DNA of 64,000 nucleotides from an archaeon. Lineage in GTDB: Archaea; Nanobdellota; Nanobdellia; Woesearchaeales; GW2011-AR9. The position numbers and the translations under genes were made by a program. Below the pieces are notes generated by a model. It saw only the letters and a list, made by a program, of their open reading frames with translations, was not told the DNA's origin and made no database searches. Every line of letters begins with the position of its first letter. The stretch's first letter is position 1. This document shows positions 33,876 to 46,384 of the stretch, piece by piece. The stretch lies in assembly GCA_018696395.1 (NCBI GenBank), contig JABHQR010000017.1, positions 103,094 through 167,093 of the forward strand. The letters are read 5' to 3'.

Positions 33876-34066
33876 AGTTTTAGAATTATTTTTTAGTATA
33901 TAAATGTTATTGTATGATTGAATGTGTCAATTGGTAGTTTACAATTAAAATTATGGTGTATAAATTAGAATAAATTTAAATAACTTAAGTTATTTTACAT
34001 AATATAATTTATAATTAGTTTTTATAATTTGTACTAATCTTAAATAATCTAAAGAAGGTGATGTTA

Positions 34067-35602
34067 ATGGTTAAAGATAAACATAAATCAATTGTTGATA
34101 ATGCAGTAAAATGGCTTGCTTCTGAATTTAATTACTTTAAAGATCTTCAAGGAGATTTAAATGCTTTAAGGAAAGCTATTGGTGGGAAATATTGGAAAAA
34201 AGGACAAGCTTCTAAACAAGTAAAATCTGCAATGCATGATTATTTATATGCTGCAAGAAGTGAAAGAAAATTTGAAAGAAACCTTAAACTTATTAAAGAA
34301 TTTAAATTTAGTGAAAATTATCAATTGCCTAATGATTACTTCAATTCAATTATACAAAGTAATGTGGGTGATTTAGGTGCAAAATTACAACAGGCTCAAG
34401 AAGAAGTTAAAGAGATTCAACATAGGTTAGATATTGAAGGTAATCATTTAGTATTTGCTGCATCTTATTTTAGGGGGGAAATAAGAATAAAATTAAATGA
34501 AATCAAAGAATTAATATTTCAAGATGAAAAGATTAGGTTAAATAAAGATGAGTGGGACATATCTGATAAAGAAGAAGAAGATTTATTAAACCTTGAGAAA
34601 AGTCTTACTTTAAAAGTAAATGAATTATTAAATGTTATTTTAGAAGCTGTTAAATGGTTAAATGCTTTATCTTCTGATTTAGGTGTTGCAAAGAAAATAT
34701 TTAACCAACATCAAGCAAAAAGAGAAATCACTCCTCAATTCATTAGAGCAAGTTTTGGCATACAAATTGAAGCTTTAAATTCTTCAAATAAAAATGTTAA
34801 TTCTTATAAGAAACAACTTACTATTTTAAGCCAATTTTTAAATCCTAAATTGAGAGGAGGTTTACCAAAAAGTGCATTAGTAGAAATTAAAAGGTTGATG
34901 GGGATAGTTGTAAGTCGTTCAAAAATATTACATAATGGGGGTGTAAGAGATATTATTTTTTATGCTGGTCAGGTTTATTATGATAATGGTTTAATCACTT
35001 CAGCACAAAAAGTTTGGGCTAAAGGAGGGGATTATTTAATTGATGTAAGGGATTGGTCCACTGCAGCAGCAAAGTGTTATGAAAAAGCAAAATTATGGAA
35101 AAAAGCTGCTAAAGCTTATGAAAAAGATAATAATTCACTTCATGATGCAGCTAGGTGTTATCAGAAAAGTGGGATTGATGGTTATCGTAAAATTGGAATG
35201 AGTTTAATGCGTTTAGCGGTCAATTATGGGAAAAGCGGTTACAATGAAACTGTGGGGCGTTACTTTGACCAGGCAGGAAGAATATTTCATGATGGTAGAT
35301 TATTTGATTTAGCAGGAAAATGTTATGAAATGAAAGCAGACCTAATTGTAAAGCAAAGAAAAGGTAACCAGTACGAATATTATGATTGGAGTTTTGCATT
35401 TCATGATTATAAATGGGCATTTAAAGAATATAAAGAAGCAGGCAACCAGGGCAAATTAAATGAATTATTGCCTAAGATCAGATATGCTGAAGAATGTAAT
35501 TGTCGTGTTAGAAATAATGATAGAAATTTTTTAAAGCAACATAGTACTGATGGAAATTTTCCCAATGTGGCATATCCCAAATTTAATCCGGGTAGGCTAT
35601 AA
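34067..35602 (+). CDS. Helical protein with TPR-like repeats, 511 aa
   Basis: ATG 34067 is chosen because AAGGTGATG ends five bases before it. The first 250 residues are highly helical and charged (coiled coil, KLQQAQEEVKEIQHRLDIEG). From about 305 the chain has TPR/SNAP-like helical pairs: GQVYYDNGLITSAQKVWAKG, AAAKCYEKAKLWKKAAKAYE, DAARCYQKSGIDGYRKIG, FDLAGKCYEMKADLIVKQ. Such repeats bind proteins or peptides. No membrane segment. Scaffold function is inferred; the partner is unknown. Confidence 0.8.
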   Translation: MVKDKHKSIVDNAVKWLASEFNYFKDLQGDLNALRKAIGGKYWKKGQASKQVKSAMHDYLYAARSERKFERNLKLIKEFKFSENYQLPNDYFNSIIQSNVGDLGAKLQQAQEEVKEIQHRLDIEGNHLVFAASYFRGEIRIKLNEIKELIFQDEKIRLNKDEWDISDKEEEDLLNLEKSLTLKVNELLNVILEAVKWLNALSSDLGVAKKIFNQHQAKREITPQFIRASFGIQIEALNSSNKNVNSYKKQLTILSQFLNPKLRGGLPKSALVEIKRLMGIVVSRSKILHNGGVRDIIFYAGQVYYDNGLITSAQKVWAKGGDYLIDVRDWSTAAAKCYEKAKLWKKAAKAYEKDNNSLHDAARCYQKSGIDGYRKIGMSLMRLAVNYGKSGYNETVGRYFDQAGRIFHDGRLFDLAGKCYEMKADLIVKQRKGNQYEYYDWSFAFHDYKWAFKEYKEAGNQGKLNELLPKIRYAEECNCRVRNNDRNFLKQHSTDGNFPNVAYPKFNPGRL

Positions 35603-35611
35603 ATAAAATAA

Positions 35612-36445
35612 TTATTTTTCTTTTTTATCTTTTTTAATTTCGGCTCCACCTGATGGTAGGAATTTTGTAATATCATCTAAATCTGCTCCTTTAAGTTTAG
35701 CTCTTATTTTTTTGGCAGTAACAGACTTTTTTTCTCTTCCAGGGATCACAACTACAAAATTTTCAGTTTGTTTTTTGATGGATTCAATCGGTCCACCAAT
35801 AATCTCAGAAGATTCAATGTTTGAACCATCTTCATTTTTCTTCACTATATTAACTAATCCAATGGCATATTTTAAATTTGGCCTTAGATAATTTGTCTTC
35901 CCTGTAATCATGAAACTTCCTTTAGCTAAGAATTCTCCTGATTGAGCTTCTTTACTTACTTGTTCTGGTTTAACATAAAATACATCCACTGTACCATGAC
36001 CTAATTTCCATGCTTTAGAATAAACTGCTACTGCTTGTGCACATTCATTGATAGTATTTTCTCCTGCTTTCTGGCCATCTTTGATTATGAAAAAAGGACT
36101 TCCTGCCATATCTGTATGAAAAACTAAATCTTCTTTATCTAAATGTTTTTTAACAATTATCTCATTAGAAGTGGCATCTTTACCGCCAATGCAAAGAAAT
36201 CTTTCTGTTGAAAAGAACCAATGAAATTTTTCATACCACTCTTTTTTTCTGTCTCGCTTTAGTGCTTTCTTTTCTTCTTCTTCAATGAATTTTGATTCTT
36301 CTTGTAATAACTGGTCTAATTTAGTCTTGCTTTCTTCTAATGCTTTTCTTGCGCCTTCTAATTTAGCTTTAGCTTTTTTAGCTTTCTCAAAGTATAATCC
36401 TGCATTTTCATCTACTGACTTATCTAAGAAGATTTCTATTTCCAT
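35612..36445 (-). CDS. NFACT-R (DUF814) protein lacking the N-terminal domain
   Basis: A protein of 277 residues: a short start, a coiled coil (about 15-75, KAKKAKAKLEGARKALEESK), then the NFACT-R domain with WFFSTERFLCIGGKDATSNE, KHLDKEDLVFHTDMAGSPFF and the GHGTVDVFYVKPEQVSKEAQ region. In RqcH/NEMF/Tae2 this domain follows an NFACT-N domain and HhH; together they bind stalled large subunits and add Ala or Thr tails. Here only coiled coil plus NFACT-R exist, with a clear ATG and no upstream remnant of NFACT-N. The N-terminal half may be encoded elsewhere or be missing. Confidence 0.9.
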   Translation of the reverse strand: MEIEIFLDKSVDENAGLYFEKAKKAKAKLEGARKALEESKTKLDQLLQEESKFIEEEEKKALKRDRKKEWYEKFHWFFSTERFLCIGGKDATSNEIIVKKHLDKEDLVFHTDMAGSPFFIIKDGQKAGENTINECAQAVAVYSKAWKLGHGTVDVFYVKPEQVSKEAQSGEFLAKGSFMITGKTNYLRPNLKYAIGLVNIVKKNEDGSNIESSEIIGGPIESIKKQTENFVVVIPGREKKSVTAKKIRAKLKGADLDDITKFLPSGGAEIKKDKKEK

Positions 36446-36517
36446 AAATTTTGTTTAACTTATTACTTAATTAAAGTTTTCTATTCCAAATTAATAATTT
36501 TGAAGAAAACAATTGTT

Positions 36518-36955
36518 TTATTGCCGTTGAACATAAAACTCTATTTTAATTTCGCTAGAAAAATGTCCTGGTTTCAATTTTATCATGTAATTAGTATCTA
36601 ATGAATCATAAGCTAACATTGCGCCATTTAATCTTTCATAATGAACTGGATTAGAAGCGCCATCATGATCTAAATGTGCTACTGCTTGACTGATTAGTAT
36701 TTCAATAGTACTTTCTAAACCTTTTATGTTTGGATTATTATCTCTTTCAGACTTATTGTCAAATCCATTTTTTCTATAAACTTCAAAACAGTAATCTGTT
36801 CTTGCAGAATCTTTCTTTTTATAGGGGATTAAACATACATTTTCTCTAACTAAATCAAATTCTCGGATATTTTTACTTAAATAATTTAATCCATCAAATT
36901 CGTAGACCTTATTAAATCCATTATGTTCTAACAATTTTGCAATATTGTTTGTCAT
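36518..36955 (-). CDS. Hypothetical protein, 145 aa
   Basis: Unrecognised. The ATG at 36955 avoids the overlap with the radical SAM gene that the start at 37012 would need. Strand-helix patterning (KVYEFDGLNYLSKNIREFDL; YCFEVYRKNGFDNKSERDN) and an ending of alternating strands (MIKLKPGHFSSEIKIEFYVQ) suggest a small alpha/beta domain. It follows the radical SAM gene directly on the same strand and may be its partner or substrate. No signal peptide. Confidence 0.65.
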   Translation of the reverse strand: MTNNIAKLLEHNGFNKVYEFDGLNYLSKNIREFDLVRENVCLIPYKKKDSARTDYCFEVYRKNGFDNKSERDNNPNIKGLESTIEILISQAVAHLDHDGASNPVHYERLNGAMLAYDSLDTNYMIKLKPGHFSSEIKIEFYVQRQ

Positions 36956-36981
36956 TTTTTGGTTGTTACTAAGAGGTAGTT

Positions 36982-37806
36982 TTAAATGTTTTGTTTGTTT
37001 CGGTATGCACAACTGAAACCATAATCTCTTAATTGTTGAACTTTAAGTGTTATTTCTTTATTTGGCATATTATATAAATTTTCTTTTTTAGTGAAATCAG
37101 TTTCATCAACATAAGAAATTTTTATAAACACTTTTTCTGTATCAAATAGTTGTTTGATTTTTTCTGTATCAAATTCAAACCCTTTAAATGGAACATATGT
37201 TAACGTAACTTTTGAATTTCCATCATACCAATCATTAATTATGTTTGAAATCTCTTGGTTAGTTAACATTTTTAGTTTTGGACTTAAAATTTTCTTTTCT
37301 AAATCAGAGGTTGTATGGCAGGAAAATTGTAACCTTATATTAGCTCCTTCATCATGGACCTTTTTTAACTCTTCAAAAAGGTTGTAATTACGAACTCCTG
37401 CAGTTGAAACAACGTATAATATATCATCATATTTTGATTTTAATTTTCTAATGGAATCACATAAATTTTTATGGTTACAGGCAGGATCTCCCATCTCCTT
37501 GAATTCAATTTTAGTTTGATCAAAACTGTATTGTGAATGTTCAGGTAAATTGTAAACAAATTCTACTTGCTCAACAATTTCATCAACTGATAATTTTTTG
37601 AAATGATTAAAGTGGTTAGTAAAACAGTAAATACAATTTACATTACAACCCGATGTTAAACTTACACCAATTTTCCATTTTGATAAATTCTCTTCTTTAT
37701 CTTCTAAGGTTGTATCACTAACAAAGACAGGTAAATTTTCGGGAGTTTTAAATATATAACCATGCCCATTAGGAATAATAAGTTTATCTATTAATTCAAG
37801 ATCCAT
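36982..37806 (-). CDS. Radical SAM protein, RlmN-like
   Basis: A protein of 274 residues with the cluster motif SGCNVNCIYCF (Cys 54, 58, 61; CX3CX2C) in the first strand of a partial TIM barrel. Later stretches resemble the RlmN/Cfr group: EFKEMGDPACNHKNLCDSI, VVSTAGVRNYN, RLQFSCHTTSDLEKKILSP and TLTYVPFKGFEFD. The C-terminus YGFSCAYRNK has a Cys where RlmN carries its methylated Cys, but the usual flanking motif is not kept. RNA methylation is possible; another radical reaction is equally open. The N-terminal RlmN domain is absent. Confidence 0.75.
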   Translation of the reverse strand: MDLELIDKLIIPNGHGYIFKTPENLPVFVSDTTLEDKEENLSKWKIGVSLTSGCNVNCIYCFTNHFNHFKKLSVDEIVEQVEFVYNLPEHSQYSFDQTKIEFKEMGDPACNHKNLCDSIRKLKSKYDDILYVVSTAGVRNYNLFEELKKVHDEGANIRLQFSCHTTSDLEKKILSPKLKMLTNQEISNIINDWYDGNSKVTLTYVPFKGFEFDTEKIKQLFDTEKVFIKISYVDETDFTKKENLYNMPNKEITLKVQQLRDYGFSCAYRNKQNI

Positions 37807-37869
37807 TTTTTTATTTGATCATATTTGATTTTTTTAATTAAATTATAATTAAAAATTAAAATAAAAAAA

Positions 37870-39009
37870 TTAAGGTATTAGTTTAGTACTTTTCTTCGAA
37901 TTTGGTAAAGCTCTTACTGACATTGCTGGTGATGCTGCTAATTGTTCAAGAGAAAATGTTGCCTTCAACTGTTTTTGTTGGGCAGTAAATGATTTCTGAT
38001 TTTCTCTTCGCAACTTTTCAAGGAAAATGTTATGTAAAAACCTTGTTGAGGTGTAGGCACTTTCAAGTGCTCCAAAGCTAGTACTTTCTAAATTTCCAAT
38101 CTGATTAGCTTCAGATTCTGTCATCCCTAAAAATTTTGTTGCAAAGTCAAGGCCTGTTTTATGTTGTTGGGCAGCATACTTACTTTTTGTTGTTTGTAAG
38201 TAAAAATGGCTTGTTACATGAACCACTCTACCTTCGCCTACTGGAAACTTTACAGCAATTGGCATATCAAGATATTTAGACTTCATTTCTTCACTACCTA
38301 ACAAGATATCAACATTTTCGTTCCTTAATAAGTGGATTGGATAACTAGACCCTTCTAACCACCAAATTGGTTTTAGTGAACCATTTCCTAAACCCCTAGT
38401 ATAAGGTGATCCGGATGCTACTAAGTCAACTTCTACTAAATCATTTCCAGTATTTCTTTTACCTCTTTCAATATATCCAGGGAATGCTTTCATTACCACT
38501 TCACTCAATGCCCAGTCTGTTGTTATTACAAATCCCCCATCTTCAGTAAAATTTCTTAATGCGTCAGTTCCTGTTTTCCCTTTGTACCTTAATCGGTGAT
38601 TGCCCCCTGGGCAGTTGAACATTACTATCTGTTTTGGATCTAGTTCAACATAGTTTGTGTTCATTCTATAAGGTCTTCCTGATGCAGCTAAAACTTTTTC
38701 AACAGAATCATACTGTCCTGGTACAACTAACAAGTCTGTTTCAGTTAATCTACTGATTAAATCTTTTTCACTAGGTTCAAGGATGTTGTTCAATATTCTT
38801 GTTGACATTTTATATGCTTGATCCATGTTTTGTGAAAGCTTACTTTTTTTAGAACCACATGAACAACTTCCTGTACAACCGCAGGCATAACCTTTGTCAG
38901 TATCATACTTTGCTTTTGCAGATGCGTAACTGAATCCACCTCCTTCACTGTTACTATTACTAGAATTACCCCAACTTGCACTGGTATCATTTCCCCAACT
39001 ATATGACAT
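37870..39009 (-). CDS. Cys-rich, amidotransferase-like protein of the kinase cluster
   Basis: A protein of 379 residues from ATG 39009, preceded by GGAGGTTAAAAAA that also ends the PK-like gene. The N-terminal 60 residues hold Trp/Gly/Asn repeats (YSWGND, SWGNSS) and a metal-binding-like CGCTGSCSC (Cys 43, 45, 49, 51). The next 200 residues resemble a class I glutamine-amidotransferase/ThuA-like fold: DLLVVPGQYDSVEKVLA, IVMFNCPGGNHRLRYKG, FTEDGGFVITTDWALSEVVM, GRVVHVTSHFYLQ. Cys in FNCPGG might be a nucleophile. It is the last gene of a three-gene unit with a PK-like protein and a J-domain kinase. Substrate unknown. Confidence 0.7.
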   Translation of the reverse strand: MSYSWGNDTSASWGNSSNSNSEGGGFSYASAKAKYDTDKGYACGCTGSCSCGSKKSKLSQNMDQAYKMSTRILNNILEPSEKDLISRLTETDLLVVPGQYDSVEKVLAASGRPYRMNTNYVELDPKQIVMFNCPGGNHRLRYKGKTGTDALRNFTEDGGFVITTDWALSEVVMKAFPGYIERGKRNTGNDLVEVDLVASGSPYTRGLGNGSLKPIWWLEGSSYPIHLLRNENVDILLGSEEMKSKYLDMPIAVKFPVGEGRVVHVTSHFYLQTTKSKYAAQQHKTGLDFATKFLGMTESEANQIGNLESTSFGALESAYTSTRFLHNIFLEKLRRENQKSFTAQQKQLKATFSLEQLAASPAMSVRALPNSKKSTKLIP

Positions 39010-39013
39010 TTTT

Positions 39014-40087
39014 TTAACCTCCAATTATTTTTTTTATTTTTCCTAACTGTGTTATTTTAGGAATTTGAGTTGAATAATTATCTGGAACATAATCTTTATT
39101 GATTGCTTGAAGTAAATTTAAAGCAGAGAATAAAGATTCTTTTTTGAAACAGATGTCATCACCAACCATAATATGTTTATATCCTATCTCTCGTAAGAAA
39201 CCAATGTCACTAATGTCTGTACATGATGGCATATAACTATCACGTAAAGATGTAAATATTCTTGAAGCAGATATTGCTTGTGAGTCTGCCCTAACTATTT
39301 GCCTAGTAGCATTTAGTATTTTGTGAGGGCGAGAAACTTCTACATAAAGGTCTCCTCTTGCAGCCATTAAACCTACATAATTTTTTATTGCAGGATAATC
39401 ATATTTTACAAAATCAAGGCCACGTTCTGACTCTATTTTAGCAACTATCTTAGCATTTGGGTCTAGTTTTAATAAATCAGAAATATCTTTTGATTCTTCA
39501 ACATAAGATAACATGTATGTATGGATTCCAACTTTTTTTGCAGCTTCAATATATCTCTTATCATTATCAGTTAAGTAACCTTTAATTCGTAAACTGGGAT
39601 CTAAAATGTTGATTGATTCTCCACCACCAATAATTCTTTGTGGCCCATCAAGCATTATTAAACGATTGCCATCAACTTTTGCAATGTAAGCTGTTTGATA
39701 GCCATCGTTAAGGTAACACTTAACTGGTTTGGTAGTGTCAAGCTCAATTTCATGGTCAAGTTCTACTATTGACCAAGGTGGTGTTCTTAATTCACCATAA
39801 GCTTTTGGATTACTAGGGTCGAGGACAACTTTTTTTCCTTCAACTTCGATTACAGTTGGTTCTTTAGGTGCATTGAAATATGCTCCTCTAGAAACTCTTA
39901 ATTGTCTACATTTTAAGTCTAACCAGATTGGTTTTTTTCCAGCAATCGATTTTAGTCTTGATAACATTTCTTCTAATGGTTCTTTAATTGGCATTACTGT
40001 GTTTAATCTTAGGCCTTCAACAATTGGGTGTTGCACAATATCTTCAAGATAAGGTGCGTATGGTGGTATTGTAGTTATTGCTTTCAT
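39014..40087 (-). CDS. Pyruvate-kinase-like protein, no C-terminal domain
   Basis: A protein of 357 residues that matches the A and B domains of pyruvate kinase at low identity. PIWLDLKCRQLRV stands where PK has the LDTKGPEIR strand. CYLNDGYQTAYIAKVDGNRL and GGGESINILDPSLRIKGYLT match the B-domain and its return. NAKIVAKIESERGLDFV matches KIE; GLMAARGDLYVEV matches the ARGDLG metal site. The regulatory C domain is absent. It may be a PK-related enzyme on another enol or phosphate substrate, or a non-catalytic sensor. It is sandwiched between the kinase and the Cys-rich gene with 4-5 base gaps. Confidence 0.75.
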   Translation of the reverse strand: MKAITTIPPYAPYLEDIVQHPIVEGLRLNTVMPIKEPLEEMLSRLKSIAGKKPIWLDLKCRQLRVSRGAYFNAPKEPTVIEVEGKKVVLDPSNPKAYGELRTPPWSIVELDHEIELDTTKPVKCYLNDGYQTAYIAKVDGNRLIMLDGPQRIIGGGESINILDPSLRIKGYLTDNDKRYIEAAKKVGIHTYMLSYVEESKDISDLLKLDPNAKIVAKIESERGLDFVKYDYPAIKNYVGLMAARGDLYVEVSRPHKILNATRQIVRADSQAISASRIFTSLRDSYMPSCTDISDIGFLREIGYKHIMVGDDICFKKESLFSALNLLQAINKDYVPDNYSTQIPKITQLGKIKKIIGG

Positions 40088-40092
40088 TTTTT

Positions 40093-41097
40093 TTATACCC
40101 TCATTTCTTTATTTGACTGTTTACGACCAAAAATTTGTTGACGTAAATCAGAAAGTTCTTTGACTAAATCTTTATCCTCCCAAGATGGTCTTGCTAAGGG
40201 ATGGTCATGCATAAATTGGTTGAAGAAAGTCTTAATTTTCTCTGGTGTATTTGTTGGATAACTTTTATCAATTGGATTTCCTCCTAATGCATAAATCATG
40301 GTTGCTGCTAATGAATATAGGTCGGTGTGTGGCATTGGTGGTTTAAGGTCAATAAGTTCTGGTGCAGCAAATGCTAGTGTATAACCTGTTGGTTTGGTGT
40401 AACTTCTAGGTTTTATTGAAGAGAATCCATAATCTACTAATACTGCATTGTGTTCCTGTGGTTTAACAATTATATTGTTTGGTTTAACATCACAGTGAAC
40501 AACTCCATTAAAGTGTAAATAATTAAGAGCGTTTAATAGTCTTTGAGTCATCCAACAAACATGTTCAGGGTCTATTCCTCCATGTTTTTCAACAATTTTA
40601 TCAATAGTTGGGCCTTCAATGTAAGTCATGGCAAAAACACAACTTCCATCATCAAGTTTAAAATAATCTCTTAATGTTGGTAAAGAATAATGATGTAATT
40701 TCCATAATAATTTGGCTTCATGAGCCATAACTATGGTATCTTCAGGACTAATGTTAATATTCTGCTTTAAACAAGCAAATTCATTAAGTAATACATGATT
40801 TGCTTTGTAAGTAACACCCATGCTTCCTTGACTAATTTGGCTTATGACTTGATAATTTCCTATCATTTTTTGTTGACTTTCCCGTAATTGTTGGTCGTAT
40901 GAAGAACGTTTTTGTGGATCTAATATGATCTCTTTTGCTTGATTAACTAAACTTGATAAATTTCCACTGTTAGAAATATCTGGGTGATACTTACGTTGCA
41001 ATGCCCTATAAGATGCTTTGATGACCTCTTGACAAGCATTAGGTTGTACTTGTAAAATTTCATATAAATTGTTTAATCCAGTGAAGTTTTCATTCAT
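40093..41097 (-). CDS. J-domain/Ser-Thr protein kinase fusion
   Basis: A protein of 334 residues. Residues 9-70 form a J domain with the HPD motif at 38-40 (QRKYHPDIS), which activates Hsp70. Residues 82-330 form an eukaryotic-type kinase: Gly-rich loop ISQGSMGVTY, Lys 111 (ACLKQ), HCDVKPNN with Asp 203 and Asn 208, VDYG at 221-224 (DFG variant), APE at 245-247 and HTDLYSL. All catalytic residues are intact, so it should be active. GGGGG lies before ATG 41097. First gene of a tight three-gene unit, divergent from the AbrB-PhoU gene. Confidence 0.93.
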   Translation of the reverse strand: MNENFTGLNNLYEILQVQPNACQEVIKASYRALQRKYHPDISNSGNLSSLVNQAKEIILDPQKRSSYDQQLRESQQKMIGNYQVISQISQGSMGVTYKANHVLLNEFACLKQNINISPEDTIVMAHEAKLLWKLHHYSLPTLRDYFKLDDGSCVFAMTYIEGPTIDKIVEKHGGIDPEHVCWMTQRLLNALNYLHFNGVVHCDVKPNNIIVKPQEHNAVLVDYGFSSIKPRSYTKPTGYTLAFAAPELIDLKPPMPHTDLYSLAATMIYALGGNPIDKSYPTNTPEKIKTFFNQFMHDHPLARPSWEDKDLVKELSDLRQQIFGRKQSNKEMRV

Positions 41098-41161
41098 TTT
41101 GTTCCCCCTTTTTCTTTTTTACTATTTACTAAGCGAAAGAATTATATATACTTGAAGCAAC

Positions 41162-41175
41162 CAGTATATATACTG
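41162..41175. promoter_or_regulatory. Palindrome between divergent kinase and PhoU-like genes
   Basis: CAGTATATATACTG is a perfect 14-bp palindrome in the 171-base gap between the kinase cluster and the AbrB-PhoU gene. A TATA-like ATTATATATA at 41141-41150 is correctly placed for the minus-strand kinase gene, so the palindrome would lie just upstream of that promoter. AT-rich palindromes arise easily by chance, which lowers confidence. Confidence 0.4.
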
Positions 41176-41268
41176 ATTATATTGTGGTTATAATCTATAT
41201 TAATCATTAACAAATGTCAACTCGTTTAATAAAAAAGAAATTAAAAATAAAATTATCAAAATAATAAA

Positions 41269-42177
41269 ATGAAAAGAAAAGTTGTAAAACATGGGCCTTC
41301 ATCATTAACTATGTCTTTACCAATGAATTGGGTTAAGAAACAACATATTCATAGTGGTGATGAGTTAGAAGTAACTGAACAAGGGAACAATCTGTTAGTT
41401 TCTGGTGAAGGGAAAAAAGATTCTAAATCAATAGATATTTCAATTAGTGGTGATAAGATGTTTGTTCGTAGGTTGTTTAACATGCCTTACTTAAGGGGTT
41501 ATGATGTGATGAACATTACTTTTGATTCTTATAACGTTATGGAAGATATTCAAAAAAATATTACTGCTTGGCGAGGTTTTGAGATTGTTGAGCAAAGAGA
41601 TAAATTTTGTAAAATTAAATGTATCGCAGAATCTAAACCTGAAGAAGTTGATCAAATGATAGTTAGGATGTTTAATATTTGTTCAACTTTATTTGATGAA
41701 ATTTTATGTTATATTAAAACAGAAAATGAAGATTGTTTGAAAAGAATGTTATTAATTGATATTAACATGACTAGAATTGATCTTTTCTGTAGGAGGGTTC
41801 TTAATGTTGGTAAAGGAATTGAAGTTGGAAAAATTGGAAGTATGTATGCAATTGTTAGAACCTTAGAAGAGATTAGTGATTTAGCGAAAGACGTTGCAAA
41901 AAGTAAACCTAAAATAAGGAGTGTGAAGAAAAAATTATTTGTAAAAATTTTAGGGGAATTAATTAAATCATTTAATTTATTACGTGCTATTAAACATAAG
42001 AAAGAGATTGAACCAATTTATGAATATAAAGAGATTAAATGTTCTTTAAGAAAAATGTTTGAGAAAGATTATCAATTAAATAAAGATGAAATGTTCATGT
42101 TCTTGACTTTACGACACTTGATTTATGAATTTCATGATTTGTCTGAAGAAGTTATTTTATGGGTTGACCCTAAATAA
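41269..42177 (+). CDS. AbrB-PhoU-type phosphate uptake regulator
   Basis: A protein of 302 residues. An N-terminal SpoVT/AbrB swapped-hairpin DNA-binding domain (about 1-45, VKHGPSSLTMSLPMNWVKK) is joined to a PhoU-type helical bundle in two parts (VDQMIVRMFNICSTLFDEIL; YAIVRTLEEISDLAKDVAKS). This fusion is typical of archaea and is thought to link phosphate transport or signalling to transcription. No pst genes are in the window. It is divergent from the kinase cluster and followed 75 bases later by a membrane protein and the CinA-NadD pair. Confidence 0.92.
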   Translation: MKRKVVKHGPSSLTMSLPMNWVKKQHIHSGDELEVTEQGNNLLVSGEGKKDSKSIDISISGDKMFVRRLFNMPYLRGYDVMNITFDSYNVMEDIQKNITAWRGFEIVEQRDKFCKIKCIAESKPEEVDQMIVRMFNICSTLFDEILCYIKTENEDCLKRMLLIDINMTRIDLFCRRVLNVGKGIEVGKIGSMYAIVRTLEEISDLAKDVAKSKPKIRSVKKKLFVKILGELIKSFNLLRAIKHKKEIEPIYEYKEIKCSLRKMFEKDYQLNKDEMFMFLTLRHLIYEFHDLSEEVILWVDPK

Positions 42178-42252
42178 TCATTTTATTTTTACTACTTTCA
42201 AGTACTTCTGATGTGCAAAATTTTATAAAAAACCCTTATTTCTAGTTAACAA

Positions 42253-43428
42253 ATGGCATTAGACGATACAATTAATGAAAATCTTAGGAAAGAATTAGCG
42301 AAAAAACCTATCACTTCACCATCAAATCCTTTTATTGAGCAATTTAAATCATTAGGTTATGGTGAGGGATTAGCTTTTGGATTTAACTTAGCAGGAACAT
42401 TAATAGCTCAATCTTTGGGTTTAAATCCTTGGGTTGTTTCACTTGCTGGCCCAATATTGGAAAAACCAGCTTTCTATGTTGTAAATGGATGTAAGGGAGC
42501 ATATGATTATTTTGAAACTCCTAAACGATTAAGAGGAGATCTTAAGAAACATGTTAAAAATGCAATTAGTGAAGGAAATGAAGATTTATTTTTAGACATT
42601 GTTTTTCATGATACTACTTATACTTTATTGATGAGAGGTTTGATGGAAATGTATTCTGAAGTTCCAGTTGGTTTTTTAGTTCCTTTTGCGTTTGGAACCG
42701 GTTTGGTTGTTGCAACTGCTGGTGGTGTAGCACTTGAAGAAGGAAAATATAAATTGTTCAGAAAGGGCTTAAGAAAAGCTGGATTTGAAGAAGAGAAATA
42801 TTTGGAGTCAAGGTTCTATATTAGTGCAGATAAAAATCCACAAGATGTTTTAGATTCGGTAGTTAATAGATTTGGCTTAACTGGAAATCAAGGTTCTATG
42901 GAATATTATGATCGGTATTTTCCTCAGCCTGATGTTAAAGAATATTCTGGAAGAAAACCTAAATTTAGGTTAAGGAAAAGGCGATTAGAAGATGGTAATT
43001 GGATGCAAACTGCCCAATTAGTATTTACTAATACTGGTAGAATAAAAAATAAAGCAGTTGAACAGTTTAATTATTTTCCACAAGAGAAATTAAAAATTTA
43101 TCACTTGTTGAATAATCAAGAAATGCCGCAAGATGTTGATCAAGTTCAAGATGAAATATCTAGGAAAGTTATGAAAAAGATTAGAGGCAGAGAACAAGGT
43201 TTAGATATTAATTTTATTAGGTCTTTTGCAACAAATGGAAAAGAGGGTTTGTTTGTATCAACAGACAAGGTTTTAGGAGTTCAAGATAGGTCATTTTATG
43301 TTGTTGAATTAAAAGTTTACAATGATAAAAAACTTCTGAAAGATGCGATGGGTTATGTTATGGCTGAATTTCCAGTGATGCAAGTAAGTCATGGGAAAGA
43401 TCATTTAGTTGCTTTGAATGGGAGTTAG
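42253..43428 (+). CDS. Hypothetical membrane protein, 391 aa
   Basis: Unrecognised. Two hydrophobic regions (about 36-68, LAFGFNLAGTLIAQSLGLNP; and about 137-162, VGFLVPFAFGTGLVVATAGG) suggest a membrane hairpin pair near the N-terminus. The remaining 220 residues are soluble and basic with strands such as WMQTAQLVFTNTGRIKN and DRSFYVVELKVYNDKKLL. It starts a probable operon: 32 bases to the CinA-like gene, which overlaps the NadD-like gene. A role in transport or membrane-associated cofactor metabolism is possible but not shown. Confidence 0.75.
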   Translation: MALDDTINENLRKELAKKPITSPSNPFIEQFKSLGYGEGLAFGFNLAGTLIAQSLGLNPWVVSLAGPILEKPAFYVVNGCKGAYDYFETPKRLRGDLKKHVKNAISEGNEDLFLDIVFHDTTYTLLMRGLMEMYSEVPVGFLVPFAFGTGLVVATAGGVALEEGKYKLFRKGLRKAGFEEEKYLESRFYISADKNPQDVLDSVVNRFGLTGNQGSMEYYDRYFPQPDVKEYSGRKPKFRLRKRRLEDGNWMQTAQLVFTNTGRIKNKAVEQFNYFPQEKLKIYHLLNNQEMPQDVDQVQDEISRKVMKKIRGREQGLDINFIRSFATNGKEGLFVSTDKVLGVQDRSFYVVELKVYNDKKLLKDAMGYVMAEFPVMQVSHGKDHLVALNGS

Positions 43429-43460
43429 ATGACGATAAACTTTATTTAAGGTATCTGAAG

Positions 43461-44207
43461 ATGAAAAAACCAGCTGAAATATTTGAGAAACATAATAATA
43501 AACTTCGATTGATGTTTGAAACTAGAAAATCATTATTAATTCGTCGGGGCGATTGGAAATCTAAGGTTGAAGAAGCAGAAGCAAGTTTGGAAGAATGGTC
43601 AATTTCTGGAAGAAAACAAAATTATGATTCTGAAGAATTAGCTGATGCAAAGTTGTTTCGGCATATCGCAAATCTTTATGAATTTGCTAATAATCTTGAA
43701 TTAAATATTGCTGATGCATTACACCAAGCTCATATTTCTGAATATCTCTTATCGAGTGGATTAAATAAAATATTAATTAGTGAAGGAAAAAAAGGGATGA
43801 AATTAGGTGTGTTAGAATTAAGTGCAAGATTAATGCCAATTTTAACTTTTCCTTGTTCATCTTCGTATTTTGAAGTGGGAGTTATTCCTTATTCTAAAGA
43901 GTCAAGAGAGATTTTAGGTGAAAATGTTCAAAGAAGTTTTGTGAATTCAAAAGTTGCATTAGAAAGTGCAACAAATATTGCAAATAAATTTGGAGTTCAT
44001 TATTCTTTAGCAGAAACTTCTGCTGCTCCAAGAACAGACGTTCCTAGGTCTGGAAGAAAACCTGGACTTTATATCTGTGGAATTATTGGAGATGAAGTTA
44101 AACTAGACGAAAGCTATGTTATTGATACTCCTTTTAGATCTGAATTTAATGCTATTGTACGTAAACATATGTATGGTGCTTTGAAAAAAATGTATGGTAC
44201 TGTATAA
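43461..44207 (+). CDS. CinA/PncC-like NMN deamidase
   Basis: A protein of 248 residues. After about 100 helical residues comes a domain similar to the CinA C-terminal fold: KLGVLELSARLMPILTFPCS, SYFEVGVIPYSKESREILG, NSKVALESATNIANKFGVHY and SLAETSAAPRTDVPRSGRKP. In bacteria PncC hydrolyses nicotinamide mononucleotide to nicotinate mononucleotide. Overlap with the next gene (TAATG) and that gene's NMN/NaMN adenylyltransferase motifs support this role. The N-terminal helical part is unusual. Activity is inferred from fold and context. Confidence 0.72.
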   Translation: MKKPAEIFEKHNNKLRLMFETRKSLLIRRGDWKSKVEEAEASLEEWSISGRKQNYDSEELADAKLFRHIANLYEFANNLELNIADALHQAHISEYLLSSGLNKILISEGKKGMKLGVLELSARLMPILTFPCSSSYFEVGVIPYSKESREILGENVQRSFVNSKVALESATNIANKFGVHYSLAETSAAPRTDVPRSGRKPGLYICGIIGDEVKLDESYVIDTPFRSEFNAIVRKHMYGALKKMYGTV

Positions 44208-45229
44208 TGAATGGACATTTAGATATATCTGAAGTTGCTCGTAGTTTACAATTGTTTAATCTTGGATTAAAATTGCAAGAAGAAGCTAAGTTAGGAAAAA
44301 ATATTTTAGAACATGTTAGAGAATCATATTCACGTGATAGGAACGATGTCAGTAATTTAGTTGTAGCGTTAGGTTCTTATGACCCTTTAAGTATTGCTCA
44401 TGAATCTTTGTTCTTAAGGGGGTTAAATTTAGTTAAAGAAAAGTCTTTAAGATTTAATGAACTTTCTTTAAATGAATTATTAATAGTAACTTCAACTTTA
44501 CATTTTAATAAAAAAGTTGATTTTAGAAAAAATTCTGCAATATATGACCGAATTCATTCATTAGAAGGATTTGCAAGTTGTTATGAAAATGTTGGTCTAG
44601 CTTTATTTAATAAACCTTTGTTTGTAGACTTAGCTGATGCAATTGAACAAAAATATTATCCTGGTATTAACATTTACTTTTTAGTTGGTTCTGATGTTAT
44701 GGAGAAAGTTATCGATCCTTTGGGATATGCATCAAGAGGGCTTGATTCTGAAGAAATTTTTTCAAAATTGTTTAAACACCACTTTATTGTCTCAGAAAGA
44801 AAAATGAAAACAAATGATGGTGAAAAAGTTGTTAGTTTGAGTGATTTATTAGATTTGTATGGTGGTGTATCTAAGTATGAACATAAAATGATTCATATGG
44901 AATTGCAAGATAGTTATGAGGTATTGGAAATTCCAATAGAAGATGTAAGTTCAACATTAATTAGGAATAGGAGAAGTAAAAGATTTAATACTAGGGAATT
45001 GGAAGCTGTAGGAATAAGTGATTTTATTGATAAGAGGGGATTATATCTTAAAGATGATTTGCAATATGCTGCATTTACTTGTGCTAGGGAAAGATTTGCA
45101 ATTGAAAATAGGGGTAAGCCAATTGCTACTTATATTCGACAATTAATGAATCATTTAGAAGAAATGAATTATAATAAAAATCTCCAAGATAAAGAGTTAA
45201 GAATTTATGAAGAAAGAAGTCAAAAGTAA
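44207..45229 (+). CDS. Nicotinate/nicotinamide-nucleotide adenylyltransferase-like protein
   Basis: A protein of 340 residues. The cytidylyltransferase-like fold shows ALGSYDPLSIAHESLF (Gly 56, His 65, matching GxFxPxHxxH-type motifs), IYFLVGSDVMEKV and SSTLIRNRR (about 248-256), which matches ISSTxIR of NadD/NMNAT. It is longer than usual, with about 50 extra N-terminal residues and a helical C-terminal extension. It starts within the stop of the CinA-like gene, so the two enzymes should act together: deamidate NMN, then adenylate it to the NAD precursor. No NadE is in this window. Confidence 0.8.
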   Translation: MNGHLDISEVARSLQLFNLGLKLQEEAKLGKNILEHVRESYSRDRNDVSNLVVALGSYDPLSIAHESLFLRGLNLVKEKSLRFNELSLNELLIVTSTLHFNKKVDFRKNSAIYDRIHSLEGFASCYENVGLALFNKPLFVDLADAIEQKYYPGINIYFLVGSDVMEKVIDPLGYASRGLDSEEIFSKLFKHHFIVSERKMKTNDGEKVVSLSDLLDLYGGVSKYEHKMIHMELQDSYEVLEIPIEDVSSTLIRNRRSKRFNTRELEAVGISDFIDKRGLYLKDDLQYAAFTCARERFAIENRGKPIATYIRQLMNHLEEMNYNKNLQDKELRIYEERSQK

Positions 45230-45234
45230 AATCT

Positions 45235-45696
45235 CTAACATTCCCTTACTTCTTCAACAACAAGGGCTTGGTCAGTACAAATTTCTTTTTCTTCAAATGG
45301 TTTGATAATTGGGATGATTTTAAGTTGTTTGATTTCTCCACTAAGCTCTTCGTTATATCCTATGTGGGTCATGTAATTCCCAGCTTTGAACATGGAAGCA
45401 TCTTCTAAATTATATGATTCTGCTCGTTCTGTTCCAATTATGTTCACGACCACTCCTTCAACTTCAGTGTTAATGCCATTTTCTATTACAAAATATATGT
45501 CGTTCTTTTCTGTATCAATACAAATCTCTTCAATACTATTAATTTTAGAAAATTCTAAACCAATATCTATTGGACATTGGGCTTCTAGGTCAAGTTGGGC
45601 ACGACCAAAATTCATGATAACTAAACCTAGGGCTACTGCGAAAGAAATAAGTAACAATGTTGCTACTATCGGTGCCATACCTCTTTTTAGTTGCAT
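45235..45696 (-). CDS. Archaeal type IV pilin-like protein
   Basis: A protein of 153 residues from ATG 45696. The start MQLKRGMAPIVATLLLISFA has the class III signal form: short basic leader, then a hydrophobic pilin helix (7-28) that would be cut by a PibD-like peptidase near KRG/M. The rest is a compact beta domain with three or four cysteines (QCPID, EICIDT, EICTDQ, VREC). The longer frame would overlap rpsB, so it is rejected. Convergent with the NadD-like gene over five bases. Likely a minor pilin or adhesin. Confidence 0.82.
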   Translation of the reverse strand: MQLKRGMAPIVATLLLISFAVALGLVIMNFGRAQLDLEAQCPIDIGLEFSKINSIEEICIDTEKNDIYFVIENGINTEVEGVVVNIIGTERAESYNLEDASMFKAGNYMTHIGYNEELSGEIKQLKIIPIIKPFEEKEICTDQALVVEEVREC

Positions 45697-45781
45697 ATGA
45701 TTAAATAATACTATCTGTGTATATAAATTTTTGGGAATTAAGAAATAAATGTTAATAATAAAAAAATAAAAAAGAACAATT

Positions 45782-46384
45782 TTATTCTTCAGTAAATTCT
45801 TCAAGAGAGATTGGTAAATCTTCTTCAGTTCTTAGAATTCCTTTATTTCGCATAAATTCTCTTGCAAATAAATAAACTACTAAACCTACTGATTTTTTAC
45901 CTTTGTTATTTGCAGGGACAACTAAATCTAAATTGTTAGATTCATTGTTAGTGTCGCATAAAGCAATTATTGGGATTCCTGCCTTTGAAGCGTCTTGGAC
46001 AGCATTTTTATCTGGCCAAGGGTCACATACAATTAACAATTTTGGTTCAATAAAAGTTTCTAAGTTAGTGTTAGTTAAAATTCCTGGTGGGTACCTTCCA
46101 CAAATTACGTTAATTCCAGTAAGTTTTTTTAATAATTTCAAAGCTTTCCAACCATTTTCTCTTCTACTGATAAATAAAATGTCTTTAGCTTCATATTGTG
46201 AAATCATTTTAGCAGCAACTCTAATCCTTTCATCAATTTTTTTCAAATTTAAAACACTTAATCCATCTGGTCTAGTTTTGTAGATGAATTCTTTCATGTA
46301 TTTAGTTTTAAATTTAGTTCCAATATGAATCCCTGATTTTAAGTATTCATTGGAATCAATTAATAATTCTTCTTGTTCACTCAT
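45782..46384 (-). CDS. rps2: Small-subunit ribosomal protein uS2
   Basis: A protein of 200 residues, typical archaeal length. YLKSGIHIGTKFKTKYMKEF is the conserved N-terminal signature; LNLKKIDERIRVAAKMI, VICGRYPPGILTN, EPKLLIVCDPWPDKNAVQDA and IPIIALCDTNNESNNLDLVVP follow the family. AAGGAG lies eight bases before ATG 46384. It binds the small-subunit head/platform. A perfect 9-bp inverted repeat lies 45 bases upstream. Confidence 0.97.
   Translation of the reverse strand: MSEQEELLIDSNEYLKSGIHIGTKFKTKYMKEFIYKTRPDGLSVLNLKKIDERIRVAAKMISQYEAKDILFISRRENGWKALKLLKKLTGINVICGRYPPGILTNTNLETFIEPKLLIVCDPWPDKNAVQDASKAGIPIIALCDTNNESNNLDLVVPANNKGKKSVGLVVYLFAREFMRNKGILRTEEDLPISLEEFTEE

Follow-up and report, generated by a model that had tools for sequence, protein, structure and literature searches.

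An archaeal J-domain kinase operon related to kinase-vWA-PKL cassettes of NAD operons and phages

Reportedly, the TerY-P groups are made up of a vWA protein, a kinase and a PP2C. DnaJ fusions are known in the GAP1-N2 systems (PMC7159879), and in the vWA-MoxR ternary systems the vWA protein is a predicted peptide-binding co-chaperone (Kaur et al. 2020, PMC7159879). For the ARG-centred systems neither a kinase nor a pyruvate-kinase-like protein is reported (PMC9503650, section 3.8), and in the ArnA-ArnB-ArnC/D system of Sulfolobus the vWA protein ArnB is phosphorylated at its C terminus by archaeal kinases and bound by an FHA protein (PMC6509490). Regarding the operon analysed here, located in a window of 64,000 nucleotides of archaeal DNA (Table 1), no described system with its gene set was found in the open-access literature, as had been anticipated, and the kinase-vWA-PKL cassette to which it is related, whose kinase often has a J domain, is apparently undescribed so far.

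The window operon consists of co-directional minus-strand genes encoding a J-domain kinase, a pyruvate-kinase-like protein (PKL), a third protein (GAT) and, as fourth gene, a radical SAM protein. The original prediction comprised the first three genes, and their strand, order and coordinates were borne out, with intergenic gaps of 5 and 4 bases, as were the ribosome sites proposed at the preceding stops, a GGAGG overlapping that of PKL and a GAGGG in front of that of the kinase. For GAT, the ATG at 39009 is the likeliest start, in preference to the TTG upstream of it at 39024. The exact gene set was found in one other genome, G116, among 371 genomes of the phylum. An ORF of 164 aa after the radical SAM gene is without a counterpart in G116 and was left out of the core. 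The AbrB/PhoU family of the divergent neighbour is present in 10 loci, with relatives close to several kinase-vWA-PKL loci, and this neighbour is a possible regulator of the operon, although the link is weak.

Table 1. Features of the window operon and its divergent neighbour, in window positions.
Feature	Position	Strand	Basis or remark
RlmN-like radical SAM protein (CNVNCIYC), 274 aa	36982..37806	-	PF04055; fourth gene of the operon
Third protein GAT, 379 aa from ATG 39009; possible GATase1-like core, vWA-type N- and C-terminal tails	37870..39009	-	
GAT C-terminal tail KKSTKLIP	37873..37896	-	[S/T]-x-x-L type, common to vWA and GAT proteins
CGCTGSCSC cluster	38857..38883	-	Not conserved in relatives
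GAT N-terminal tail MSYSWGNDTSASW...GGGFSYASAKAKY	38896..39009	-	Homologous to N-tail of the family's vWA proteins
PKL, 357 aa, A and B domains only	39014..40087	-	PF00224; PDB profile; Foldseek; alignments
J-domain Ser/Thr protein kinase, 334 aa	40093..41097	-	PF00226 and PF00069 over cut-off
Kinase domain within kinase gene	about 40210-40854	-	
J domain within kinase gene	about 40894-41070	-	
Divergent intergenic region with AGTATATATACT palindrome	41098..41268	.	Separates operon from AbrB/PhoU gene; sequence
AbrB/MazE and PhoU-like protein, divergent neighbour	41269..42177	+	PF04014 over cut-off, PF01895 below

J domains recruit Hsp70, and the predicted fusion of a J domain to a kinase with a full catalytic set was recovered in the first gene. 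Its J domain scored 51.9 bits against PF00226 (cut-off 27.8) with HPD at residues 38-40, and its kinase domain, of the non-RD type, scored 107.7 bits against PF00069 with K111, E127, HCDVKPNN, DYG and APE present, thus including the invariant K, E, D, N and D. Some bacterial or phage kinases are pseudokinases, so that kinase activity is not universal. A convergent origin of the J-kinase fusion is not claimed, because a single clade was not rejected (p-AU 0.55 and 0.31). HPD is retained in 4/6 archaeal and 14/17 viral J-kinases, and the window's genome encodes one Hsp70 (at C6:9484) and a DnaJ, all of which would suit the originally proposed model of a general stress response with PKL under the control of the J-kinase via Hsp70. 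However, HPD is replaced by HED in G116 and by RPE in G133 and the kinases of the NAD operons described below have no J domain, hence Hsp70 cannot be essential everywhere, and the conserved neighbourhood is without stress genes; that model is very unlikely. Recruitment of Hsp70 via the J domain is a possible option, and where HPD is intact the J domain would bring it in.

Regarding PKL, the pyruvate-kinase A and B domain motifs and the missing C domain noticed at the outset were also found in profile searches and alignments. The protein matched PF00224 with 48 bits, pyruvate kinase in the profile search of the PDB with 3.6e-23, spanning the A and B domains, and pyruvate kinases by structure (Foldseek prob 1.00). 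It resembles pyruvate kinase (PF00224) in these two domains and in the PEP/Mg side of the active site (R27, N29, D57, R64, K217, E219, G245 and D246), keeping the catalytic Lys, the Mg-binding Glu/Asp and the PEP-site Arg, but differs in having no C domain and in its K+/ATP-site residues, with S/H of NFSHG changed to V/M, TQ to SR and the Lys of KGVN to Glu. The K+ and ATP-side residues are missing from nearly all PKL members, while K59, Q62, S275 and R276 are invariant in 24/24 PKLs, and an insertion of ~40 residues near residues 66-108 is common to the window and G116 only. The PKL profile gave 190-524 bits for the family vs 112 or less for canonical pyruvate kinases, and, judged by sequence, PKL is a family separate from canonical pyruvate kinase. 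It is extremely improbable that PKL is the plain pyruvate kinase of this organism and the kinase a chance neighbour; although the PKL profile search detected no canonical pyruvate kinase in the genome, as such an explanation would have it, both PKLs of the genome sit inside cassettes, the losses on the K+ and ATP side extend to nearly all of the family, and the linkage of kinase and PKL is kept from archaea to phages. Counted by eye, the presence of canonical pyruvate kinase does not appear to follow that of PKL.

Whole-genome surveys covered the window's phylum, Spirochaetota and the 28-genome group of L013, and one further contig scan used short exact patterns as queries. In the window's phylum, 23 PKL loci were detected in 16/371 genomes, with a vWA gene next to PKL at 19 of the 23 and a kinase at 18. 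The genes are kept together rather than scattered, as kinase and/or vWA adjoins PKL at every intact archaeal locus off contig ends, and the anatomy of the cassette is solid. At 12 loci, within NAD(P)-salvage operons, the gene encoding NMN-adenylyltransferase lies directly upstream of the kinase, with six 4-base overlaps, and other flanking genes at archaeal loci encode NadE, NAPRT, nicotinamidase, NADK, Nudix and, at 5 loci, ADP-ribosylglycohydrolase. The window's own genome has a second, NAD-operon copy of the cassette 65 kb from the window operon. The window copy has no adjoining NAD gene; the protein encoded at 44207-45229 is only weakly NadD-like (28.8 bits), and no ADP-ribosylglycohydrolase was seen among the ORFs at 34000-46000. 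The groups in the kinase tree and the PKL tree match, with window, NAD and spirochaete sequences in one and phage and archaeal type II sequences in the other; an AAA_3 gene, about 3.5 kb off and on the opposite strand, was seen at the spirochaete locus only. Of the signalling or stress module first envisaged, the co-inherited kinase and PKL partners stand, but the usual third partner is vWA and the context is NAD/ADP-ribose, not general stress. By gene context the cassette is probably a new control system tied to NAD, and for the window operon we favour, with confidence just short of even, its being a derived kinase-vWA-PKL member, phosphorylation-controlled and tied through that context to NAD/ADP-ribose metabolism.

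The vWA gene present in relatives was not found in the window operon. The N-terminal tail of GAT aligned with the vWA family (hhalign) at 59% identity over 34 columns, the tail only, with an E of 8.5e-6, and the [S/T]-x-x-L tail motif was detected in 15/21 vWA and 6/6 GAT proteins vs 6/292 other proteins. At the level of sequence, GAT with its vWA-family tails occupies the vWA slot in the window. The amidotransferase/ThuA core suggested for GAT drew no support from Pfam, NCBIfam or PDB profile searches; the single-sequence AlphaFold model of GAT had a pLDDT of 35, and the vWA profile gave chance matches only against the PDB. The Cys cluster is present in the window as described but is missing from L015 and all other members, including the GAT of G116 (55% identity to that of the window), and being private to the window it does not make 'Cys-rich' a definition of the family. 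A relative of GAT that stands alone carries a fused FHA phospho-reader. On the analogy of the ArnB C terminus, the vWA and GAT tails may be kinase docking or phosphorylation sites.

Outside archaea, J-kinase-vWA pairs were detected on 18 viral contigs of up to 485 kb, 17 of which carry PKL; the kinase is in 18/18 viral loci examined and the neighbours beyond the cassette are otherwise varied. These loci were recovered with type II and mixed profiles; clade I profiles gave no viral hits. A PurA-like protein can replace PKL as partner of the vWA clade, and relatives of the vWA gene occur in 208 phage records, of which about 190 are from mycobacteriophages. The matches to PKL on plasmids look like ordinary pyruvate kinases, most of them annotated pyk and with 23-29% identity. 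It is possible, though rather unlikely, that the cassette is used in conflicts between phage and host over NAD/ADP-ribosylation, as phage counter-defence and archaeal defence. Kinase, J domain and vWA would then form a phosphorylation-gated chaperone for modified proteins, and the damage would be repaired by ADP-ribosylglycohydrolase, Nudix and NAD synthesis. Carriage by the viral contigs, huge phages, mycobacteriophages and plasmids, the patchy archaeal occurrence, the ADP-ribosylglycohydrolase near the huge-phage triad and in a second phage group as well as at the archaeal loci, and the likeness to ARG-centred systems with vWA chaperones (PMC9503650) all argue for such a role; yet PADLOC gave no match to known anti-phage defence systems beyond generic kinases, no nuclease, TIR, SIR2 or other toxic effector was recognised among the annotated neighbours of the archaeal loci, and the stable place in housekeeping NAD operons looks metabolic.

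The window-type radical SAM protein was detected solely in the window and in G116, with a score of about 560 bits against 138 bits for the next match, and its nearest relative lies within a NAD operon in G314. Its place in the operon, the PurA-like enzyme filling the PKL slot elsewhere and the conservation of the altered PKL site in 24/24 members, which argues for new chemistry and not decay, are consistent with a biosynthetic pathway, in which PKL, GAT and the radical SAM enzyme would make a small molecule, for example a metabolite derived from NAD or PEP, and the kinase, together with vWA or GAT, would only regulate or scaffold, a role reportedly proposed for Ter biosynthetic modules. This is unlikely, as no complete pathway is visible and most cassette loci are without GAT and radical SAM.

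If the operon is instead a derived member of the NAD-linked cassette, as favoured here, PKL would bind Mg2+ together with a ligand resembling PEP or pyruvate and might act as a modified phosphotransferase or metabolic sensor, and the cassette proteins would jointly tune NAD or ADP-ribose turnover to the energy state; in the window, GAT would stand in for vWA as the partner with the tails, and a modification would come from the radical SAM enzyme. A broader proposal, which we regard as doubtful, is an unrecognised system of (J-)kinase, vWA and exapted enzyme that couples phosphorylation and Hsp70 to control of NAD+/ADP-ribose. It would extend over archaea, bacteria, plasmids and giant phages, the enzyme would have gained a new reaction and would be PurA-like in bacteria and mycobacteriophages, and, as part of the same joint claim, the tails would serve as movable docking tags exchanged among partners, the window being an instance. 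The cassette brings together four themes rarely combined, namely protein phosphorylation, J-domain/Hsp70, vWA peptide binding and NAD metabolism, is small and moves among archaea, bacteria and giant phages, and would account for genes now labelled hypothetical in many records. With a relative in the lab-tractable mycobacteriophage I3 (genes 270, 271 and 273), its function is open to test now.

Among the known systems, ArnA-ArnB-ArnC/D (PMC6509490) differs in controlling motility and in lacking PKL, a J domain and NAD genes. The vWA-MoxR ternary systems similarly have a vWA protein within a multi-gene cassette, but no MoxR recurs among the archaeal or viral neighbour clusters here. The ARG-centred anti-ADP-ribosylation systems (Iyer et al. 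2022, PMC9503650) likewise unite ADP-ribosylglycohydrolase, Nudix and a vWA chaperone, whereas ARG is optional in the present cassette and NAD synthesis genes dominate. The TerY-P type vWA-kinase-PP2C groups and the GAP1-N2 systems (PMC7159879) share with it a MIDAS vWA adjoining a Hanks-type kinase; PP2C is absent from the mapped cassette loci, the PP2C genes of the window's genome being on contigs C24 and C5, and in place of PP2C the cassette has a pyruvate-kinase-like or PurA-like enzyme and the setting of an NAD operon.

The three ORFs of the original prediction are all present in the window as described, with gaps of 5 and 4 bases and a ribosome-binding sequence at the stop codons of the preceding gene, and a radical SAM gene is the fourth gene of the operon. 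As proposed, the J domain of the first gene product (PF00226, 51.9 bits) is fused to a kinase domain (PF00069, 107.7 bits); both scores exceed the cut-off, and HPD at residues 38-40 and the catalytic motifs HCDVKPNN, DYG and APE were found. For the third gene, ATG 39009 is the most likely start; the CGCTGSCSC cluster reported in its product is real but private to this protein. The genome G116, from another family of the same class, repeats the order kinase, pyruvate-kinase-like protein (PKL), third protein (GAT), radical SAM, with identities of 53, 66, 53 and 54%, respectively, and both PKLs have a common insertion of ~40 residues. Among 371 genomes of the phylum, the radical SAM subfamily reaches ~560 bits in these two, and no other score exceeds 138 bits. 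The window also encodes an NFACT-R domain protein that has just the last part of the N-terminal region of NFACT and is a short relative of Rqc2, a ribosome quality control factor.

Coordinates of the genes discussed
Feature	Location	Strand
J-domain kinase	window 40093..41097	-
PKL	window 39014..40087	-
GAT	window 37870..39009	-
Radical SAM	window 36982..37806	-
NFACT-R domain protein	window 35612-36445	
Adenylyltransferase-like protein	window 44207-45229	
GAT-like protein with FHA domain (G084)	L019:9747-10949	
Radical SAM relative (G314)	L118:7955-8770	
157-aa spirochaete protein	L012:6924-7397	

Sixteen of the 371 genomes contain hits above 190 bits to the PKL profile, at 23 loci in all; canonical pyruvate kinases reach at most 112 bits on this profile. 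According to gene maps, a vWA protein adjoins PKL at 19 of these loci and a kinase at 18, and the MIDAS motif DxTGS is invariant in the vWA proteins of this cassette. The loci that deviate are those at contig ends, one with a PKL fragment, two in which vWA-PKL adjoins a HAM1-type gene, and the operons of the window and of G116, which lack the vWA gene. A complete copy (NMNAT, kinase, vWA, GAT, PKL) lies 65 kb away in the window's own genome. At L055 and L062, the vWA and PKL genes have as neighbours a gene for a HAM1-type pyrophosphatase and a set of six conserved, uncharacterised genes with products of up to 749 aa, which may represent a different system.

The vWA proteins carry an N-terminal tail (YSWGxD...Y-x-[FY]-xx-A[RK]-xx-Y), the sole part common to the GAT and vWA families (34 columns, 59% identity; hhalign), and end in [S/T]-x-x-L. 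The latter motif occurs in 15 of 21 vWA and 6 of 6 GAT proteins vs. 6 of 292 other proteins, a contrast that is only descriptive because the motif was defined on the sequences counted, and in 13 of 15 viral vWA proteins. Given both shared tails, the window's third protein looks like a GAT bearing vWA tails. A stand-alone GAT-like relative in genome G084 is fused to an FHA domain, which is compatible with phospho-signalling; in Sulfolobus, kinases phosphorylate ArnB, a vWA protein, at its C terminus, and ArnB binds the FHA protein ArnA (PMC6509490).

Resemblance of the second gene to pyruvate kinase was borne out: the PKL family profile aligned with E. coli PykF over domains A and B (3.6e-23), and in Foldseek a structure model from four sequences (pLDDT 67, pTM 0.69) retrieved pyruvate kinases with a probability of 1.00, a best E of 3e-15 and a TM-score to query of ~0.6. 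One rival reading is that PKL is a plain pyruvate kinase. In an alignment of 24 PKLs with 14 canonical enzymes, R27, N29, D57, R64, K217, E219, G245 and D246 are common to the PKLs and the canonical enzymes, the NFSHG serine is replaced by V, A or T in the PKLs and the histidine by M in 21 of the 24, the KGVN position is E157, and K59, Q62, S275 and R276 are invariant among the PKLs; viral PKLs mostly retain the same set. With residue roles that we take from general knowledge of pyruvate kinase, the PEP/Mg side of the site appears to be retained and the K+/ATP side altered, and therefore ordinary pyruvate kinase activity is unlikely, as is decay.

An adenylyltransferase gene lies directly upstream of the kinase at 12 loci, overlapping it by 4 bases at six, and matches archaeal NMN adenylyltransferase at 75 bits, short of the equivalog cut-off of 181 bits. 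Among the families that flank the cassette are NAD synthase (PF02540), nicotinamidase-like isochorismatase (PF00857), nicotinate phosphoribosyltransferase, NAD kinase (PF01513), Nudix, PRPP synthetase and ADP-ribosylglycohydrolase (PF03747). The NAD association is one of gene context, not function. In genome G314, the protein most closely related to the window's radical SAM is encoded between NadE and the adenylyltransferase (neighbours read from sequence) in an NAD salvage operon containing no kinase, vWA or PKL. In the window, a 340-aa protein weakly similar to nicotinate-nucleotide adenylyltransferase (28.8 bits) is encoded in a divergent operon after AbrB/PhoU.

The original prediction inferred a signalling or stress module in which the kinase controls the PK-like enzyme, perhaps through Hsp70; this Hsp70 stress model is a rival reading. 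The window's genome has one Hsp70, and the J-kinase fusion recurs at four other archaeal loci and most viral loci. HPD is present in 4 of the 6 archaeal J-kinases and in 14 of the 17 viral ones, and lost in the rest. In kinase trees, the window kinase pairs with G116 and the members within NAD(P)-salvage operons, while viral J-kinases group with those of a second archaeal group (type II); the PKL tree has the same split, and a single J-kinase clade was not rejected by the tree test.

In IMG/VR, type II and mixed profiles detected kinase and vWA together on 18 distinct viral contigs, of which 17 also carry PKL; the neighbours otherwise vary. In phage LR745208 (485 kb), a gene for an ADP-ribosylglycohydrolase lies ~4 kb beyond those for J-kinase, vWA and PKL. 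A phage-host conflict system is a rival reading of the cassette. Two spirochaete contigs also have kinase-vWA-PKL, or as much of it as the contig reaches. HPD-containing proteins with a mere trace of kinase similarity precede the viral vWA in L162, L163, L170, L171, L176, L179 and L184, and a 157-aa protein of no known family directly follows the spirochaete PKL gene in L012 and is present in L011. Other spirochaetes (L100, L101, L103) have vWA and a PurA-like protein (PF00709), usually with the kinase. A Rhodococcus plasmid (L120) encodes an HPD-containing pseudokinase, vWA, PurA-like and Nudix proteins, a second (L122) has the same order by annotation, the sole source for its enzyme, and a Variovorax plasmid (L121) has pseudokinase, vWA and a PurA-like ORF. 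A vWA relative occurs in 208 phage records; in mycobacteriophage I3 (L123), the one examined, genes 270, 271 and 273 encode an HPD-containing kinase-like protein, vWA and PurA-like protein in order. Kinase or pseudokinase, vWA and PurA-like adenylosuccinate synthetase form a sister arrangement with another enzyme in the PKL slot.

We propose that the kinase would act on the tail-bearing vWA or GAT, that PKL would report or convert a PEP-like ligand, and that NAD/ADP-ribose would be the target of the output, with J-Hsp70 as a putative optional chaperone arm. That the cassette serves a biosynthetic pathway is a further rival reading. No description of the kinase, vWA and PK-like combination was found in the open-access literature; its novelty is provisional because the 2012 Ter-system paper lies outside this comparison. 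The closest published systems are those of PMC7159879, PMC9503650 and PMC6509490.
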